This document shows, one piece after another, positions 29,855 through 37,967 of a stretch of DNA of 64,000 nucleotides (within the stretch, counting starts at the first letter, position 1; each line of letters opens with the position of its first letter). The position numbers were made by a program, and so were the translations under genes. This DNA is from Anaeromyxobacter dehalogenans 2CP-1 (GTDB lineage Bacteria; Myxococcota; Myxococcia; Myxococcales; Anaeromyxobacteraceae). The notes under the pieces are model-generated. The model worked only from the letters and a program-made list of their open reading frames with translations, was not told the DNA's origin and did not search any database. The stretch is taken from assembly GCF_000022145.1 (NCBI RefSeq), contig NC_011891.1:4322501-4386500 (forward strand), read 5' to 3'.

Positions 29855-31231
<1,377 letters not shown>

Positions 31232-31283: not shown

Positions 31284-32273
31284 ATGACCTGGCGCGACGA
31301 GATCGCCCGCCGCGTCCGCGGCGAGCACCTGCGCGACGCGCCGCTCGCGCCGCGCACCGCGGTGCGGGTGGGCGGTCCGGCCGACCTGCTCTGCCGCCCC
31401 GCCGACGGCGACGCGCTCTCGGCGCTGCTCCGCGCGGTGCGCGAGCTGGGGGTGCCGCTCTCGGTGCTGGGCGGCGGCGCGAACACGCTGGTCGCGGACG
31501 CCGGCGTGCGCGGGGTGGTGCTGCGGCTGCCGCAGGAGTTCCCGGGCGAGTCCACCGACGGTGACACGCTGGTCCTCTCCGCCGGCGCGCCCATCTCGCG
31601 GCTGCCGGCGCGGGCGCACGCGCACGGCCTCGTCGGCATGGAGTTCCTGGGCGGGATCCCGGGGACGCTGGGCGGCGCGGCCGCCATGAACGCCGGCACG
31701 CGCCTGGGCGAGATGAAGGACGTCGTCACCCGGCTCGAGCTCGCCACCCCCGACGGCACCGGCTTCGTGCCGGCCTCGGCGCTGGGCTACGCCTACCGGA
31801 CCTGCCGGCTCCCGCCCGGCGCGGTCATCGCCCGCGTCGAGGTGCGGCTCCACCCCGGCGACGTGGCCGCGAGCGAGGCGCTCATGCGCGAGGACCGCGA
31901 GCGCCGCCGCGCCACCCAGCCGCTCTACCGGCCCACCTTCGGCTCCACCTTCACGAACCCGCCGGGCGAGTACGCCGGGCGCCTGGTGGAGGCGGTCGGG
32001 CTGAAGGGGCACCGCGTCGGCAACGCGATCTGGTCGCCGGTGCACGCGAACTTCGTGACGAACCTGGGCGGCGCCACCGCCCGCGACGTGCTCGCGCTCG
32101 TGCGGCTGGCGCGGGCCCGGGTGCAGGAGCGGTTCGGGATCGCGCTCGAGACCGAGGTCCGGCTCCTGGGCGAGTTCCTCGAAGAGGATCTGGAAGGGCT
32201 GGACGGGCACGCCGCCGCGGGCGGCGGCCCCGGCGCGGCGAGCGGGGGCGTGCGCCCCCCGGAGGCGACATGA
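31284..32273 (+). CDS. murB: UDP-N-acetylenolpyruvoylglucosamine reductase MurB
   Basis: A 329-residue FAD-dependent reductase making UDP-MurNAc. FAD-binding elements include VRVGGPADLLCRP, LGGGANTLVAD and FLGGIPGTLGGAAAMNAG. GSTFTNPPGEYAGRLVEAVG contains the catalytic Ser and matches the type II MurB form. GNAIWSPVHANFVTNLGGAT completes the active site. The C-terminus carries a Gly/Ala-rich tail. It starts 52 bp after murC in a GC-rich gap and overlaps ddl by 4 bp. Confidence 0.94.
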   Translation: MTWRDEIARRVRGEHLRDAPLAPRTAVRVGGPADLLCRPADGDALSALLRAVRELGVPLSVLGGGANTLVADAGVRGVVLRLPQEFPGESTDGDTLVLSAGAPISRLPARAHAHGLVGMEFLGGIPGTLGGAAAMNAGTRLGEMKDVVTRLELATPDGTGFVPASALGYAYRTCRLPPGAVIARVEVRLHPGDVAASEALMREDRERRRATQPLYRPTFGSTFTNPPGEYAGRLVEAVGLKGHRVGNAIWSPVHANFVTNLGGATARDVLALVRLARARVQERFGIALETEVRLLGEFLEEDLEGLDGHAAAGGGPGAASGGVRPPEAT

Positions 32274-33196
32274 GCACGTGGACGGGCAAGCGGGTGGCGG
32301 TGCTGTACGGCGGACGCTCCAGCGAGCGCGAGGTGTCGCTCAGGACCGGCGCCGCCTGCGCCGACGCGCTCCGGCAGAAGGGGCACGAGGTGGTGCTGCT
32401 GGACGTGGACCTCGAGGTGGCGGCGCGGCTCCGCGCCGAGCGGGTCGAGGTCGCGTTCGTGGCGCTGCACGGCCGCTTCGGCGAGGACGGCAGCATCCAG
32501 GGGCTGCTCGAGTCGATGGCCATCCCGTACACCGGCTCCGGCGTGCTCGCCTCGGCCATGGGCATGGACAAGACCGTGTCGAAGGCGATCTTCCGCTCGC
32601 TCGGCCTGGCCGTCGCCGACTACCGCGTGTTCCCGCGCGCCTCGGCCGGCTCGATCGGCGTGGGCGATCTCCCGTTCGGCCTTCCGTGCGTGGTGAAGCC
32701 CGCCGGCGAGGGCTCGTCCGTGGGCGTGCACCTCGTGAACGAGGCCGCGGAGCTCGGCCCCGCCTGCCGCGACGCCGCCTCCCACGCCGGCGACGTGATC
32801 GTCGAGCGGTACGTCAAGGGCACCGAGGTGGACGTGGCGGTGCTGGACGGGAAGGCGCTCGGGGCGATCGAGATCGTCCCCGCGAACGCGTTCTACGACT
32901 ACGCCGCGAAGTACACCGCCGGCACCACGAAGTACTTCTACCCGGCGCGCCTCCCCGAGGCGCACGTCCGCGCGGTGATGCAGGCGGCCGAGGCCGCGCA
33001 CCGCGGGATCGGCTGCAGCGGCGTGACCCGCGTGGACTTCATCGTGGCCGGCGACGGGACGCCGTACATCCTGGAGGTGAACACGCTGCCCGGGATGACC
33101 GCGACGTCGCTCGTCCCGAAGATCGCCGCCGGCCTGGGCCTGTCGTTCCCCGACCTGTGCGAGCGGATCCTGGACGGCGCTGCGTTGAAGGCCTGA
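32270..33196 (+). CDS. ddl: D-alanine-D-alanine ligase
   Basis: A 308-residue ATP-grasp ligase, DdlB-sized. The N-terminal domain has LYGGRSSEREVSLRTG. The ATP-grasp region has VVKPAGEGSSVGV, VERYVKGTEVDVAVLDG and the metal-binding VDFIVAGDGTPYILEVNTLPGM. The ATG overlaps the murB stop. It ends the first plus-strand run of the dcw cluster; a cytochrome gene on the other strand separates it from ftsQ. Confidence 0.95.
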   Translation: MSTWTGKRVAVLYGGRSSEREVSLRTGAACADALRQKGHEVVLLDVDLEVAARLRAERVEVAFVALHGRFGEDGSIQGLLESMAIPYTGSGVLASAMGMDKTVSKAIFRSLGLAVADYRVFPRASAGSIGVGDLPFGLPCVVKPAGEGSSVGVHLVNEAAELGPACRDAASHAGDVIVERYVKGTEVDVAVLDGKALGAIEIVPANAFYDYAAKYTAGTTKYFYPARLPEAHVRAVMQAAEAAHRGIGCSGVTRVDFIVAGDGTPYILEVNTLPGMTATSLVPKIAAGLGLSFPDLCERILDGAALKA

Positions 33197-33215
33197 GCGA
33201 GGTCCGCGCCGCCCG

Positions 33216-34292
33216 TCAGCGGGCGACGTACGCCTTCGCCTCGTGGCACGCCTTCGCGCAGCTCCCGCCGCTGGCGGTGCGCGTGAAGCCGAGCTTCAGC
33301 ACGTAGCCGCCGCTCCCGTAGGCCACGCTGTCGCGGACGTGCCGCTCCTGCCTGGACGCGTGCGCGTCGTGGCAGGCCCGGCAGGCGAGGCCCCGCTCCC
33401 GGTTCACGTGCACCGCGTGCAGGTTCCGGGCGCCGTCCCGGAAGCGGGTGAACGCGGTGGTCTCGGCCTCCGAGACCAGCCGGTCGTTGTGGCAGCCGAA
33501 GCAGAGCGCGTAGCTTCGCCGGTCGTAGGGCGCGTACAGCTTGTCGGGCAGGTCCGCCACCAGCAGCCGCGGGTGGTCGCCGCCGTGGGTGCGGTGGCAG
33601 GCGGCGCAGTCGCGCTCGCGGACCGGCTCGTGCCAGACCGGGTTCTCCTCCAGCCATCGGCGCATGTTGAGCATCGTCCGCCCGTCCGCCGCCGTCATGC
33701 CGTCCTTCGAGTGGCAGCCGACGCACAGCTCGAATGCCGGCGCGATGAGCAGCGCCTCGTGGCGGGCGGCGTGGGGATCGTGGCAGCTCGCGCAGGCCCG
33801 CCCCTCGGTCACCGGGGCGTGCTTCATCGGCGCCGCGGCGGCCTGGGCGGCGACCCCGGGGTGGCAGCGGGCGCACAGCTCGGCCACCGGGGCCGCGAGC
33901 AGCGACGGGCCGGCGCCGTCGTGCGGGTTGTGGCAGGTGGTGCAGGAGCGGACGGCCGGCGCGTGCTTGAGCTTGCGCGCCATCACCTCGCGCATCTCCT
34001 CGTGGCACTCGAGGCACCCGGCGTTCACGCTCGCGTGGCGCAGGGGGCCGGGGCTGGCGCGGTCGGCCGAGCGGTGGCAGGCGCCGCAGTCGCCGGCCGC
34101 GTACGGCGCGTGGGTCGAGCGGGCCTGGCCGGGCGGGAGCGGCGCCGTCGCCGCGGCGGCGCGCCGCACCGCGGGCACGGGCGGCGCCGCCGCGGCCGTC
34201 CCCGCGGGCGTAGCGCGGGCCGGCCCGGCCGCCCCGGCAGCGATGCTGGCCGCGGCGAGGAATCCCGCCACCTTGGCGCGCCCGTGGTGCAT
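33216..34292 (-). CDS. Multiheme cytochrome c, DmsE/doubled-CXXCH type
   Basis: A 358-residue exported cytochrome. Residues 1-28 are a signal peptide (ending PARATPAG). Nine CxxCH heme sites are seen (CGACH, CLECH, CTTCH, CARCH, CASCH, CVGCH, CAACH, CFGCH, CRACH). A tenth site is CAKACH (CxxxCH), so a decaheme protein is plausible. The paired spacing resembles the doubled-CXXCH family and DmsE/MtrA-like periplasmic electron carriers. It probably moves electrons through the periplasm. It sits on the minus strand between ddl and ftsQ, convergent with ddl, and is unrelated to cell division by family. Confidence 0.92.
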   Translation of the reverse strand: MHHGRAKVAGFLAAASIAAGAAGPARATPAGTAAAAPPVPAVRRAAAATAPLPPGQARSTHAPYAAGDCGACHRSADRASPGPLRHASVNAGCLECHEEMREVMARKLKHAPAVRSCTTCHNPHDGAGPSLLAAPVAELCARCHPGVAAQAAAAPMKHAPVTEGRACASCHDPHAARHEALLIAPAFELCVGCHSKDGMTAADGRTMLNMRRWLEENPVWHEPVRERDCAACHRTHGGDHPRLLVADLPDKLYAPYDRRSYALCFGCHNDRLVSEAETTAFTRFRDGARNLHAVHVNRERGLACRACHDAHASRQERHVRDSVAYGSGGYVLKLGFTRTASGGSCAKACHEAKAYVAR

Positions 34293-34548
34293 GTGCGTTC
34301 GCTCCCGGTGGCCGGCCGGCGCGGGCGACTCCTCCCGCCCGGCTCGGAGCGCTGCGTGCTGCCCGAGATGCTAGCGCATCCTCACCGGAAGACGAGAAGC
34401 CGGGCGGTCCGGGATTCGCGGGCGGAAAACTTGCCAGCGGCCGGTGCTGCGGCATCCTGCACCGTCGGGTGATAGCGCCCGGAAGCGCCCTCTGGTTTCA
34501 TGCACGTGGGCTGCGGTGGGCGGATGTATCCGGGTGGCGGGAGCGGCG
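34293..34548. other. Divergent intergenic region between cytochrome c and ftsQ
   Basis: No gene is seen in this 256-bp gap. It must hold the promoter for the ftsQ-ftsA-ftsZ run as well as that of the cytochrome. A dyad GATGC-N4-GCATC lies at 34367-34380. I could not pick a convincing -35/-10 pair. Confidence 0.45.
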
Positions 34549-35433
34549 GTGGCGCGGGGTCCGAACCGGCGGCGCGTGGACAGGGTTCCGGGGGAGCGGC
34601 GGCGACGGCTGGCCCGCGCGATGGCGCTCGCCCTGCCCTCGATCCTCGCGCTCGCGGCCCTGGGCGGCGCCGCGACCCTCGGCTGGCGCGTCGGCTGGAA
34701 GAGCGACCTGCTGCGCGTCCGCGAGATCCGGTTCGAGGGGCTCTCGCGCGCGACGCCGCAGGAGCTGCTCGATCTCTCGCCGGTGCAGCCGGGCGACCAC
34801 CTCCTGTTCGTCGACACCGACGCGATGGCGGCGGCGCTGCGGCGCCACCCCTGGATCGCGTCGGCCCAGGTCCGCCGCACCTTCCCGCCCGCGCTCGAGG
34901 TGCAGCTCGCGGAGCGGCGGCCGGCCGCGCTGGTGGACCTGGGCGGCCTGTACCTGGTGGACGACCGCGGCGAGGTGTTCAAGCGCGCGGTCCCGGGCGA
35001 CGGGCTGGACCTGCCGGTCATCACCGGCATCGAGCGCGAGGCGTGGGCGGAGGGGCGCGGCGAGCTCGCGCCGCTGCTGGGCGGCGCCCTGGCGCTGCTC
35101 GGCCGCTGGTCGGCGCGCGGCCTCGACGCGCGCTCGACGATCTCGGAGATCCACGTGGACCCGGAGTACGGGACCACGCTCTGGTCGGACGAGGGGACGG
35201 AGATCCGCCTCGGACAGGGAGATCTGGAGGAGAAGCTGACGCGCCTCCACCGCGTCCTCTCGGCGCTCGACGCCGAGGGGGAGCGGGCGGAGGTGCTGCA
35301 CCTGGACAACCGCCGCCGCCCGGACTGGGTGGCGGTCCGGGTGGCCGGTCGGCGCGGTGAGCCGGACGGACGGTCGTCGTACGCAGCGGGTGGTGGTGGT
35401 GGTCCGCAGGGACGCTCGTCGTCGCTGCGGTAG
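34549..35433 (+). CDS. ftsQ: Cell division protein FtsQ
   Basis: A 294-residue bitopic division protein. A short basic cytoplasmic tail (ARGPNRRRVDRVPGERRRR) leads to one transmembrane helix (about residues 24-42). A POTRA domain (VREIRFEGLSRATPQELLDL, then DTDAMAAALRRHPWIASAQV) and the FtsQ beta domain follow. The C-terminus ends in a Gly/Ser-rich tail. The GTG at 34549 is preferred over in-frame starts from 34444 because GGGAG lies 5 nt upstream and the Arg-rich N-terminus fits the family. Confidence 0.9.
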   Translation: MARGPNRRRVDRVPGERRRRLARAMALALPSILALAALGGAATLGWRVGWKSDLLRVREIRFEGLSRATPQELLDLSPVQPGDHLLFVDTDAMAAALRRHPWIASAQVRRTFPPALEVQLAERRPAALVDLGGLYLVDDRGEVFKRAVPGDGLDLPVITGIEREAWAEGRGELAPLLGGALALLGRWSARGLDARSTISEIHVDPEYGTTLWSDEGTEIRLGQGDLEEKLTRLHRVLSALDAEGERAEVLHLDNRRRPDWVAVRVAGRRGEPDGRSSYAAGGGGGPQGRSSSLR

Positions 35434-35498: not shown

Positions 35499-36731
35499 AT
35501 GGCGAAGAGCGGGGACATCCTCGTCGGCCTGGACATCGGCACGACGAAGATCTGCGCCATCGTCGGCGAGGTCACCGACGACGGCTCGATCGACATCATC
35601 GGCATCGGCTCGCACCCGTCGAAGGGGCTGCGGAAGGGCGTGGTGGTCAACATCGACGCCACCGTCGCCTCGATCAAGCGTGCGATCGAGGAGGCCGAGC
35701 ACATGGCGGGGTGCGAGATCACCACCGTCTACACCGGCATCGCCGGCGGCCACATCAAGGCGTTCCCCTCGCACGGCGTGGTGGCGGTGAAGGACAAGGA
35801 GGTCCGCCAGCAGGACGTGGACCGCGTCATCGACCAGGCCAAGGCGGTCGCCATCCCGCTGGACCGCGAGGTGATCCACGTGCTCCCGCAGGAGTTCGTG
35901 GTGGACGACCAGGACGGCGTGAAGGAGCCGGTCGGGATGAGCGGCGTGCGCCTGGAGGCGAAGGCGCTCATCGTCACCGGCGCGGTCTCCTCGGCGCAGA
36001 ACATCGTCAAGTGCGCGCAGCGCACCGGCCTGAACGTGGCCGACATCGTGCTGCAGCCGCTGGCCTCCTCGCTCGCGACGCTCTCCGAGGACGAGAAGGA
36101 GCTGGGCGTGTGCCTGGTGGACGTCGGCGGCGGCACCACCGACATCGCCATCTTCCACAACGGCTCGATCCAGCACACCGCGGTGATCTCGCTCGGCGGC
36201 AACCACCTCACCAACGACGTGGCGGTGGGGCTGCGCACGCCCACCCACGAGGCGGAGCGGATCAAGAAGCAGTACGGCTGCGCCATGGCCTCGATGGTGG
36301 ACAAGACCGAGACCATCGAGGTGCCGAGCGTGGGCGGCGGCCAGCCGCGGGTCCTCTCGCGCCACATCCTCGCCGAGATCGTGGAGCCGCGCGTCGAGGA
36401 GATCTTCATGCTGGTGCAGCACGAGATCCAGAAATGCGGGATGGAGGAGATCCTCGCCTCGGGCGTGGTGATCACCGGCGGCTCGACGCTGCTCGCCGGG
36501 ATGCCCGAGATGGCCGAGGAGGTGCTGGGCGTGCCGGTGCGGCGGGGGCTGCCGCGGGGGATCGGCGGCCTGGTGGACGTGGTGAAGAGCCCGATGTACG
36601 CCACCGCGGTCGGCCTGGTGATCTACGGCGCGCACCAGCAGGACGACAGCCCGTACTTCAAGATCCGCGACGAGAACGTGTACCGGAAGGTGAAGGTCCG
36701 CATGAAGGAGTGGCTCGGGCAGATCTTCTAG
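35499..36731 (+). CDS. ftsA: Cell division protein FtsA
   Basis: A 410-residue actin-like protein that tethers FtsZ to the membrane. The phosphate 1 motif is VGLDIGTTKICAIVGE (about residues 9-24). The 1C domain has GIAGGHIKAFPSHGVV. Phosphate 2 is VDVGGGTTDIAIF; the adenosine motif is VVITGGSTLLAGM. The C-terminal amphipathic membrane-targeting helix reads RMKEWLGQIF. It starts 65 bp after ftsQ with GGAGG upstream. ftsZ follows 18 bp after the stop. Confidence 0.96.
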   Translation: MAKSGDILVGLDIGTTKICAIVGEVTDDGSIDIIGIGSHPSKGLRKGVVVNIDATVASIKRAIEEAEHMAGCEITTVYTGIAGGHIKAFPSHGVVAVKDKEVRQQDVDRVIDQAKAVAIPLDREVIHVLPQEFVVDDQDGVKEPVGMSGVRLEAKALIVTGAVSSAQNIVKCAQRTGLNVADIVLQPLASSLATLSEDEKELGVCLVDVGGGTTDIAIFHNGSIQHTAVISLGGNHLTNDVAVGLRTPTHEAERIKKQYGCAMASMVDKTETIEVPSVGGGQPRVLSRHILAEIVEPRVEEIFMLVQHEIQKCGMEEILASGVVITGGSTLLAGMPEMAEEVLGVPVRRGLPRGIGGLVDVVKSPMYATAVGLVIYGAHQQDDSPYFKIRDENVYRKVKVRMKEWLGQIF

Positions 36732-36749: not shown

Positions 36750-37967
36750 ATGATCGAGTACACCGACAGGCAGGACGCGGCGAAGATCAAGGTGATCGGC
36801 GTCGGCGGCGGTGGCGGCAACGCCATCAACACCATGGTGGCGGGTCGCCTCGAGGGCGTGGAGTTCATCGCCGCCAACACCGACGTGCAGGCGCTGGCCG
36901 CGAACAAGGCGGGGGTGAAGATCCAGCTCGGCAAGTCCGCCTCGCGCGGGCTGGGCGCGGGCGCGAACCCCGAGGTGGGGCGCACCGCGGCGCTGGAGGA
37001 GCGCGAGCAGATCGCCGCGGCGCTCGAGGGCGCCGACATGGTGTTCGTGACCGCCGGCATGGGCGGCGGCACCGGCACCGGCGGCGCGCCGGTGGTGGCC
37101 GACATCGCGAAGGCCACCGGGGCGCTCACCGTGGGCGTGGTGACGAAGCCGTTCCTGTTCGAGGGGAACAAGCGGCGCAAGCAGGCCGAGGCCGGCATCG
37201 CCGAGCTGGCCGCGGCGGTCGACACGCTCATCGTGATCCCGAACCAGCGGCTGCTCTCGGTGGCGGGCGAGAACATGTCGCTCGCCGACGCGTTCAAGCG
37301 CGCCGACGAGGTGCTGCTGAACGCGGTGCAGGGCATCTCCGACCTCATCACCGTGCACGGCATCGTCAACGTGGACTTCGCCGACGTGCGCACCATCATG
37401 GGCGGCCAGGGCATGGCGCTCATGGGCACGGGCCGGTCCTCCGGCGAGCAGCGCACGGTCGAGGCGATGCAGGCCGCCATCAGCTCGCCGCTGCTCGAGG
37501 ACGTCACGCTCGACGGCGCCACCGGCCTGCTGGTGAACATCACCGGCGGCCCGAACCTGACGCTGCACGAGGTGAACGAGGCGGTGTCGATGGCGCAGTC
37601 CGCCGCCGACGCCGACGCGAACATCATCTTCGGCTCGGTCATCGACGAGCGGCTGGGCGACGAGGTGAAGATCACCGTCATCGCCACCGGCTTCCAGGCG
37701 CGGGAGGAGCGCAGCCGCGCCATCGCCCGGAAGGTCGAGCCGGTGGAGGCGCGGGCGCCGGCGACGGTCCGGCAGGTGCCGCCGCCGCTGCCGGTCGAGG
37801 CCACCGCCAAGGCGCCCATCCGGCTGCAGACCCCGGCGGCGCCGGCCCACGCCACCGCGCCCGCGAAGGTGTCGTTCCGCCGCGAGGCGCCGGTGTACCG
37901 CCCGGCCGACGAGGACCAGTACGACATCCCGGCGTTCCTGCGCCGGGGCAACCCGCCGCGCGAGTAG
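36750..37967 (+). CDS. ftsZ: Cell division GTPase FtsZ
   Basis: A 405-residue tubulin-like GTPase forming the division ring. The tubulin signature is [10 protein letters not shown] near 105-115. [13 protein letters not shown] (about 14-26), the T7 synergy loop [11 protein letters not shown], and [12 protein letters not shown] are present. After the globular domain a Pro/Ala-rich linker (about 320-385) leads to the conserved C-terminal peptide [11 protein letters not shown], which binds FtsA. GGGGGAA precedes the ATG. It is the last gene of the dcw cluster, followed by a large hairpin. Confidence 0.97.

Follow-up and report, generated by a model that had tools for sequence, protein, structure and literature searches.

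A gene for a c-type cytochrome with ten predicted heme sites lies between ddl and ftsQ in the division cluster of Anaeromyxobacter dehalogenans 2CP-1, and comparison with relatives suggests that it is what remains of an old gene cassette. We propose that a divergent cassette encoding a three-heme cytochrome, the decaheme cytochrome and ResA-like-domain/TPR proteins entered the ddl/ftsQ gap early in the Anaeromyxobacter family. The cassette would have landed upstream of an already existing ftsQ promoter, which would have kept ftsQAZ expressed. Later the A. dehalogenans clade would have lost all cassette genes but the decaheme gene, which stayed under purifying selection. Taken as a whole, with a decaheme cytochrome carrying a CxxxCH site, a role in periplasmic electron transfer and an ftsQ promoter that predates the cassette, this reading appears reasonably probable to us.

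The window, which is the whole stretch of DNA analyzed (64,000 nucleotides), comes from a genome that consists of a single contig of 5,029,329 bases. The features around the cytochrome gene are listed in Table 1. The ftsZ and murC labels, like that of murG, are presumed from characteristic sequence features plus matches in relatives.

Table 1. Window coordinates of the cytochrome gene, its neighbors in the division cluster and the features discussed in the text.
Feature	Position	Strand	Basis or remark
murC	29855-31231	plus	label from matches in relatives
murB	31284-32273	plus	profile matches
ddl	32270-33196	plus	profile matches; stop 19 bases from cytochrome stop
decaheme c-type cytochrome gene	33216-34292	minus	ATG start, 358 aa ORF, signal-like N-terminal segment
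CxxxCH site (CAKACH)	33243-33260	minus	residues 345-350; conserved family-wide
intergenic region, cytochrome and ftsQ divergent	34293-34548		site of the three-heme gene in relatives; absent here
promoter-like ftsQ block (GAAAACTTGC ... GGGTGATAGCGCCCGGAAGCG)	34425-34487	plus	upstream conservation
ftsQ	34549-35433	plus	GTG start; POTRA_1 (FtsQ-type) and FtsQ_DivIB_C matches
ftsA	35499-36731	plus	profile matches
ftsZ	36750-37967	plus	label from matches in relatives

The decaheme cytochrome and its CxxxCH site

The 358-aa translation contains nine CxxCH motifs (CGACH, CLECH, CTTCH, CARCH, CASCH, CVGCH, CAACH, CFGCH and CRACH) in addition to the CxxxCH site. The open reading frame and profile matches confirm the original prediction of an antisense gene with these ten sites that splits murC-murB-ddl from ftsQ-ftsA-ftsZ. 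The protein shares with the doubled-CxxCH cytochromes (PF09699, TIGR01905) CxxCH pairs with the family spacing, and its score of 155.5 bits against Pfam Paired_CXXCH_1 (PF09699) is far above the gathering cut-off of 20.6. What sets it apart from them is the invariant CxxxCH at its terminus and the cassette context found in most relatives. Judged by its sequence, the cytochrome is a member of a widespread doubled-CxxCH group with a predicted C-terminal CxxxCH heme site (GG-x-C-x3-C-H). A structure model of the cytochrome had a mean pLDDT of 50.7 and was too poor for use in a fold search.

CxxxCH was present in 18/18 orthologs besides the window; in two of them a contig end truncates the gene at its opposite end. 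A search through public genomes retained 79 loci, four of which (L081, L082, L083 and L088) repeat G017, G009, G021 and G030; 78 had a readable open reading frame, L129 being dropped because no long multiheme frame was found in it. Terminal GG-x-C-x3-C-H occurred at 71 of these 78 loci, from many phyla, and the seven loci without CxxxCH were more distant relatives, related to each other. In the alignment of orthologs, exactly 20 columns contained His in 15 or more of the 17 rows, comprising ten proximal positions in the heme motifs and ten candidate distal positions; 19 of the 20 columns were invariant and the remaining one was Met in two rows. Ten hemes with two His ligands apiece would require just this number. 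The match favors use of the CxxxCH site, and we infer that the cytochrome carries ten bis-His hemes. Because it is invariant, the CxxxCH site is probably used for heme.

It had been claimed that such a site requires a heme lyase tolerant of a longer spacer. Use of the site is probable, as just described, but the tolerance would not be extraordinary: heme attachment to CxxxCH has been proven by mass in MmcA, a Methanosarcina acetivorans protein (PMC11024163). MmcA resembles the decaheme cytochrome in its CxxxCH and differs in being an archaeal heptaheme protein related to tetrathionate reductase, in another context. CcmE had no match in the A. dehalogenans genome (5 of 14 genomes gave a positive control), whereas ResB matched in three regions of it (G000:C1:973335-974660, 1960132-1960620 and 2072316-2072561). 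The lack of CcmE and the presence of ResB make System II the likely maturation route, and the genome's System II machinery would then also serve the CxxxCH site. The three ResB regions raise the possibility that several maturation systems exist, perhaps specialized. No dedicated heme lyase was seen in the ddl/ftsQ cassettes; a CcsA/ResC-like gene cluster, labeled by eye only, was near 6 of 82 wider loci.

Contents and history of the ddl/ftsQ gap

Sixty genomes were searched, the window's own included, and full or near-full orthologs of the cytochrome were present in 18 others at 44-94% identity, a signal therefore far beyond chance. In 16 of these genomes the ortholog occupied the ddl/ftsQ gap in antisense orientation, four of the 16 having a single flank on the contig. 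The two orthologs outside the gap were those of G021, at another locus in the same family, and G030, from another family. Gene calls in the gaps that contain other genes, in the G030 stretch and at the 82 wider loci came from a loose custom script that may miss or misplace genes. In 14 of the in-gap relatives, the gap contained a divergent cassette that included the decaheme gene. The usual order was the three-heme cytochrome, the decaheme and then one to three ResA-like-domain/TPR proteins without CxxC; two to four partner genes commonly accompanied the cytochrome. The ResA-like/TPR genes stood between the cytochrome and ddl in 14/16, and the small three-heme cytochrome between the decaheme and ftsQ in 12/16. 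The decaheme gene was alone in the gap in the window, G001 and G002 (the G001 contig ends within the gene). No copy of the ResA-like/TPR partner was found in the window's own genome, and a search there for the three-heme cytochrome gave the decaheme itself as best match.

The original prediction spoke of an insertion. Insertion itself was upheld, as an ancient cassette found in the same gap in most relatives with an ortholog, but the gene was neither recent nor single: comparison of the junction showed the cytochrome shared at this position across most of the family. A recent insertion of one gene special to this species would fit the three genomes of the same genus that lack the cytochrome and have other genes in the gap, a multicopper oxidase-like gene among them (G003, G005 and G007), and also the one genus of the family in which the gap is empty and ddl and ftsQ adjoin (G013, G018, G021 and G023). 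Same-gap orthologs across several genera, accompanied by extra cassette genes, speak against it, as does the tree, which makes the sister clade's other gap genes a later change. We regard a recent insertion as extremely improbable.

The four states of the site were mapped on a tree built from concatenated cell-wall and division proteins and fit three changes, the minimum, compared with a shuffled mean of 9.4. These three changes place cassette entry early in the family, reduction in the A. dehalogenans clade and replacement in the sister clade. At the basal fork the empty-gap genus may or may not have branched first, so that it may either never have had the cassette or have lost it. In 14 other-family genomes, the 3.5-3.8 kb around ftsQ held no cytochrome match. 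The in-gap rows did not form one clade in the cytochrome tree, which took in 14 of the 78 wider loci: G021 nested inside them with G009 (99/99), suggesting a move within the family, and L087 also fell among them, on a long branch. Further carriers were found in Verrucomicrobiota, Acidobacteriota and other Myxococcota, which makes lateral spread of the cassette likely. In three relatives (L076:7786-10122, L077:3555-5966 and L078:4733-6463) a multicopper oxidase-like gene, along with other genes, takes the place of the cytochrome cassette in the gap; scanning one of the three showed that the other genes encode an AIG2-like protein and one weakly similar to Vut. The ddl/ftsQ gap seems to be a favored site of gene exchange.

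From the cytochrome ATG to the ftsQ GTG there are 256 bases, and the original prediction reasoned that the insertion must have forced ftsQ to have its own promoter there. Such a promoter finds support in a conserved block, about 63 bases long, upstream of ftsQ, common to seven Anaeromyxobacter genomes whatever genes lie further upstream; the reasoning had to be reversed, since part of the block also precedes ftsQ where the gap is empty. A weight matrix of the block scored 98.7 bits in the window and at most -29.9 in shuffles. Because the six sequences behind the matrix come from the genus and include the window, its high scores there are in part built in. In 20 of the 21 other family genomes, among them 4/4 with an empty gap, ftsQ was preceded at a distance of 53-90 bases by a GATA-type core, GGG[CT]GATA.CG (chance 0.08 per stretch at two mismatches allowed); among other families the core was found in 1 of 14 genomes, degenerate and far upstream. 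The AAAACTTGC part, with at most one mismatch, was present in 15/21 other family genomes and absent from the four empty-gap ones, and its AAAACTGGC form occurred in 5 of 14 other-family genomes (chance 0.004). We infer that the block is an ftsQ promoter, and its partial presence in empty-gap genomes suggests that this promoter is probably older than the cassette. Scans of 33100-34700 for a consensus sigma-70 promoter and for a terminator found neither.

The decaheme gene itself has changed considerably in A. dehalogenans. In the cytochrome tree, 0.82 changes per column fell on the branch leading to the three A. dehalogenans-type genomes. Of 108 columns without variation in the other 15 rows, 18 were altered in the window, none of them a heme Cys or His. 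The same leave-one-row-out count was 0-3 in in-gap rows, 10 in G021 and 13 in G030. The long branch and the changed columns could reflect an altered function of the window cytochrome. Another reading is that the gene is a decaying leftover without function. Loss of the partner genes would agree with decay, as would the gene's GC of 0.776 (0.65-0.69 in family orthologs outside the A. dehalogenans clade), its eight Lys residues (21-33 in the family) and its identity to the G022 protein of 0.524, compared with 0.752 for its sister G006, while the corresponding ddl values are nearly unchanged (0.74 and 0.782). However, all ten heme motifs are intact in the three A. dehalogenans-type genomes, one of which, G001, has a copy cut short by the contig, and the distal His are all intact in the two aligned A. 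dehalogenans-type rows. The open reading frame is retained, and dN/dS is in the range 0.17-0.28 (0.275 and 0.166 to two close relatives), similar to murB and ddl, so selection still acts on the gene. Decay is thus very unlikely.

The ResA-like/TPR partner

The partner family was encoded directly downstream of the cytochrome on the same strand at 40 of 82 loci (50 genes), two of which repeat others. A model built from an alignment of 22 partner proteins had a mean pLDDT of 91.8; its best PDB match was 1su9_B (E 4.7e-09), and nine of its ten best PDB matches were ResA chains (4nmu is named ResA). The model therefore points to a ResA/TlpA fold for one half of the protein, the other half being TPR repeats. 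CxxC was absent from the aligned region of all 46 partner proteins kept in the alignment, out of 50, after sizes outside 250-440 aa were dropped. The partner is thus like ResA in fold and differs from it in lacking CxxC (46/46) and in its fused TPR repeats.

ResA is the thiol reductase of System II apocytochrome maturation. Chaperones of apocytochromes can be TPR proteins, and CcmI and SirG both belong to this class. In Shewanella, these two chaperones are reported to be needed for SirA, which has an atypical site (PMC6976685), and from this precedent the partner may, by analogy, be a cytochrome assembly factor. In the dedicated maturation sets NrfEFG and SirEFG, too, an unusual heme motif goes together with a TPR-type apocytochrome chaperone encoded in the same cluster. 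In contrast to these sets, no heme lyase was seen in the cassette, and its TPR protein has a ResA-like domain without CxxC. The likeness also fails in that the TPR protein, encoded with the cytochrome in 14/16 in-gap relatives, is absent from the window's own genome.

The partner was within 5 kb at 36 of 71 loci with CxxxCH and at none of seven without; this difference favors an assembly role but is weak, being confounded by ancestry, as the seven are distant and interrelated. An assembly role is opposed by A. dehalogenans, which retains CxxxCH without the partner, and by most of 17 further partner loci. At 14 of these 17 no CxxxCH decaheme stood directly beside the partner, and at three one did (G163:C19, G192:C35 and G070:C19), so the idea of the partner as an obligatory companion was rejected. 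Among the 14, L208 is a fragment split off from the end of the G020 cassette, L209 lies on a short contig and L215-L218 match weakly. Lone ResA-like/TPR copies were seen in family genomes at L202:4229-5569, L203:3046-3921, L204:4731-5543 and L207:4307-5188, none of them accompanied by a multiheme gene in the sequence retrieved around it. In MAGs of Hydrogenimonas, Helicobacteraceae and Sulfurimonas (L115, L122 and L154), relatives had 11 CxxCH plus CxxxCH; an 8-heme gene followed immediately downstream, and the ResA-like/TPR partner was missing.

The partners might instead act in electron transfer or redox sensing. Their position directly downstream of a cytochrome and their ResA-like fold would suit this, but the absence of CxxC from 46/46 aligned proteins implies no usual thiol redox chemistry, and TPR repeats suit protein binding; we consider such a role possible, if doubtful. 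A bolder form of the assembly idea, which we put forward as speculative and rather unlikely, is that a catalytically dead ResA with TPRs would be a new System II accessory factor holding the apocytochrome for heme loading on the terminal CxxxCH, that the cytochrome/pseudo-ResA module would have spread across many phyla, and that the A. dehalogenans decaheme, through many changes away from its heme sites, would have become able to mature in the partner's absence. In a small literature search, no paper joined multiheme cytochrome, redoxin, TPR and gene cluster, and none, judged by titles and the starts of abstracts, dealt with a cytochrome inside the dcw cluster.

Predicted function and significance

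A signal-like N-terminus and ten likely bis-His sites make periplasmic electron transfer the plain reading of the cytochrome, which would probably act in anaerobic or extracellular respiration. In G030 (L053:6085-13038), the ortholog and its partner adjoin 14-heme and 10-heme cytochromes and a 557-aa protein. The 14-heme cytochrome matches the Geobacter CxxxxCH family; the 557-aa protein is without a Pfam match and may be a porin. This neighborhood hints at extracellular respiration.

The cytochrome could also be the MtrA/DmsE-type periplasmic half of a porin-cytochrome conduit that passes electrons across the outer membrane. It has in common with MtrA/DmsE the ten heme sites, the predicted periplasmic location and similar repeat segments, and it gave weak matches to TIGR03508 (DmsE decaheme, 90.4 bits) and to chain 6r2q_A, presumably the MtrA subunit of MtrCAB despite a label to the contrary. 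The multiheme genes and the 557-aa protein beside the G030 ortholog would also fit. However, the TIGR03508 score is under the curated cut-off of 192.2 bits, the tenth site is CxxxCH, and no porin gene was found beside the cytochrome in the window or recognized in the ddl/ftsQ cassettes. The score against NF041028 (GSU2203 family decaheme) was 67.5 bits, also below its curated cut-off (325). In addition, the species' published porin-cytochrome (pcc) cluster has a different periplasmic cytochrome, with 12-14 hemes (PMC4245776). A conduit role is therefore unlikely. The genome paper on strain 2CP-C counted 68 cytochrome genes, and its main text contained no match to the prefix Adeh_37 or to ftsQ (PMC2330069).

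Periplasmic electron transfer by a cytochrome from an old cassette thus remains the reading that we favor. The terminal CxxxCH signature and the recurring partner define a recognizable multiheme group, from Anaeromyxobacter to Planctomycetes and Nitrospirae, in which heme loading on a stretched motif becomes testable by simple gene removals. For the Anaeromyxobacter family, the proposed history means that a division cluster can be split harmlessly when new genes land upstream of an existing promoter, and that one gap, from ddl to ftsQ, would have been filled, reduced and refilled within a single family.
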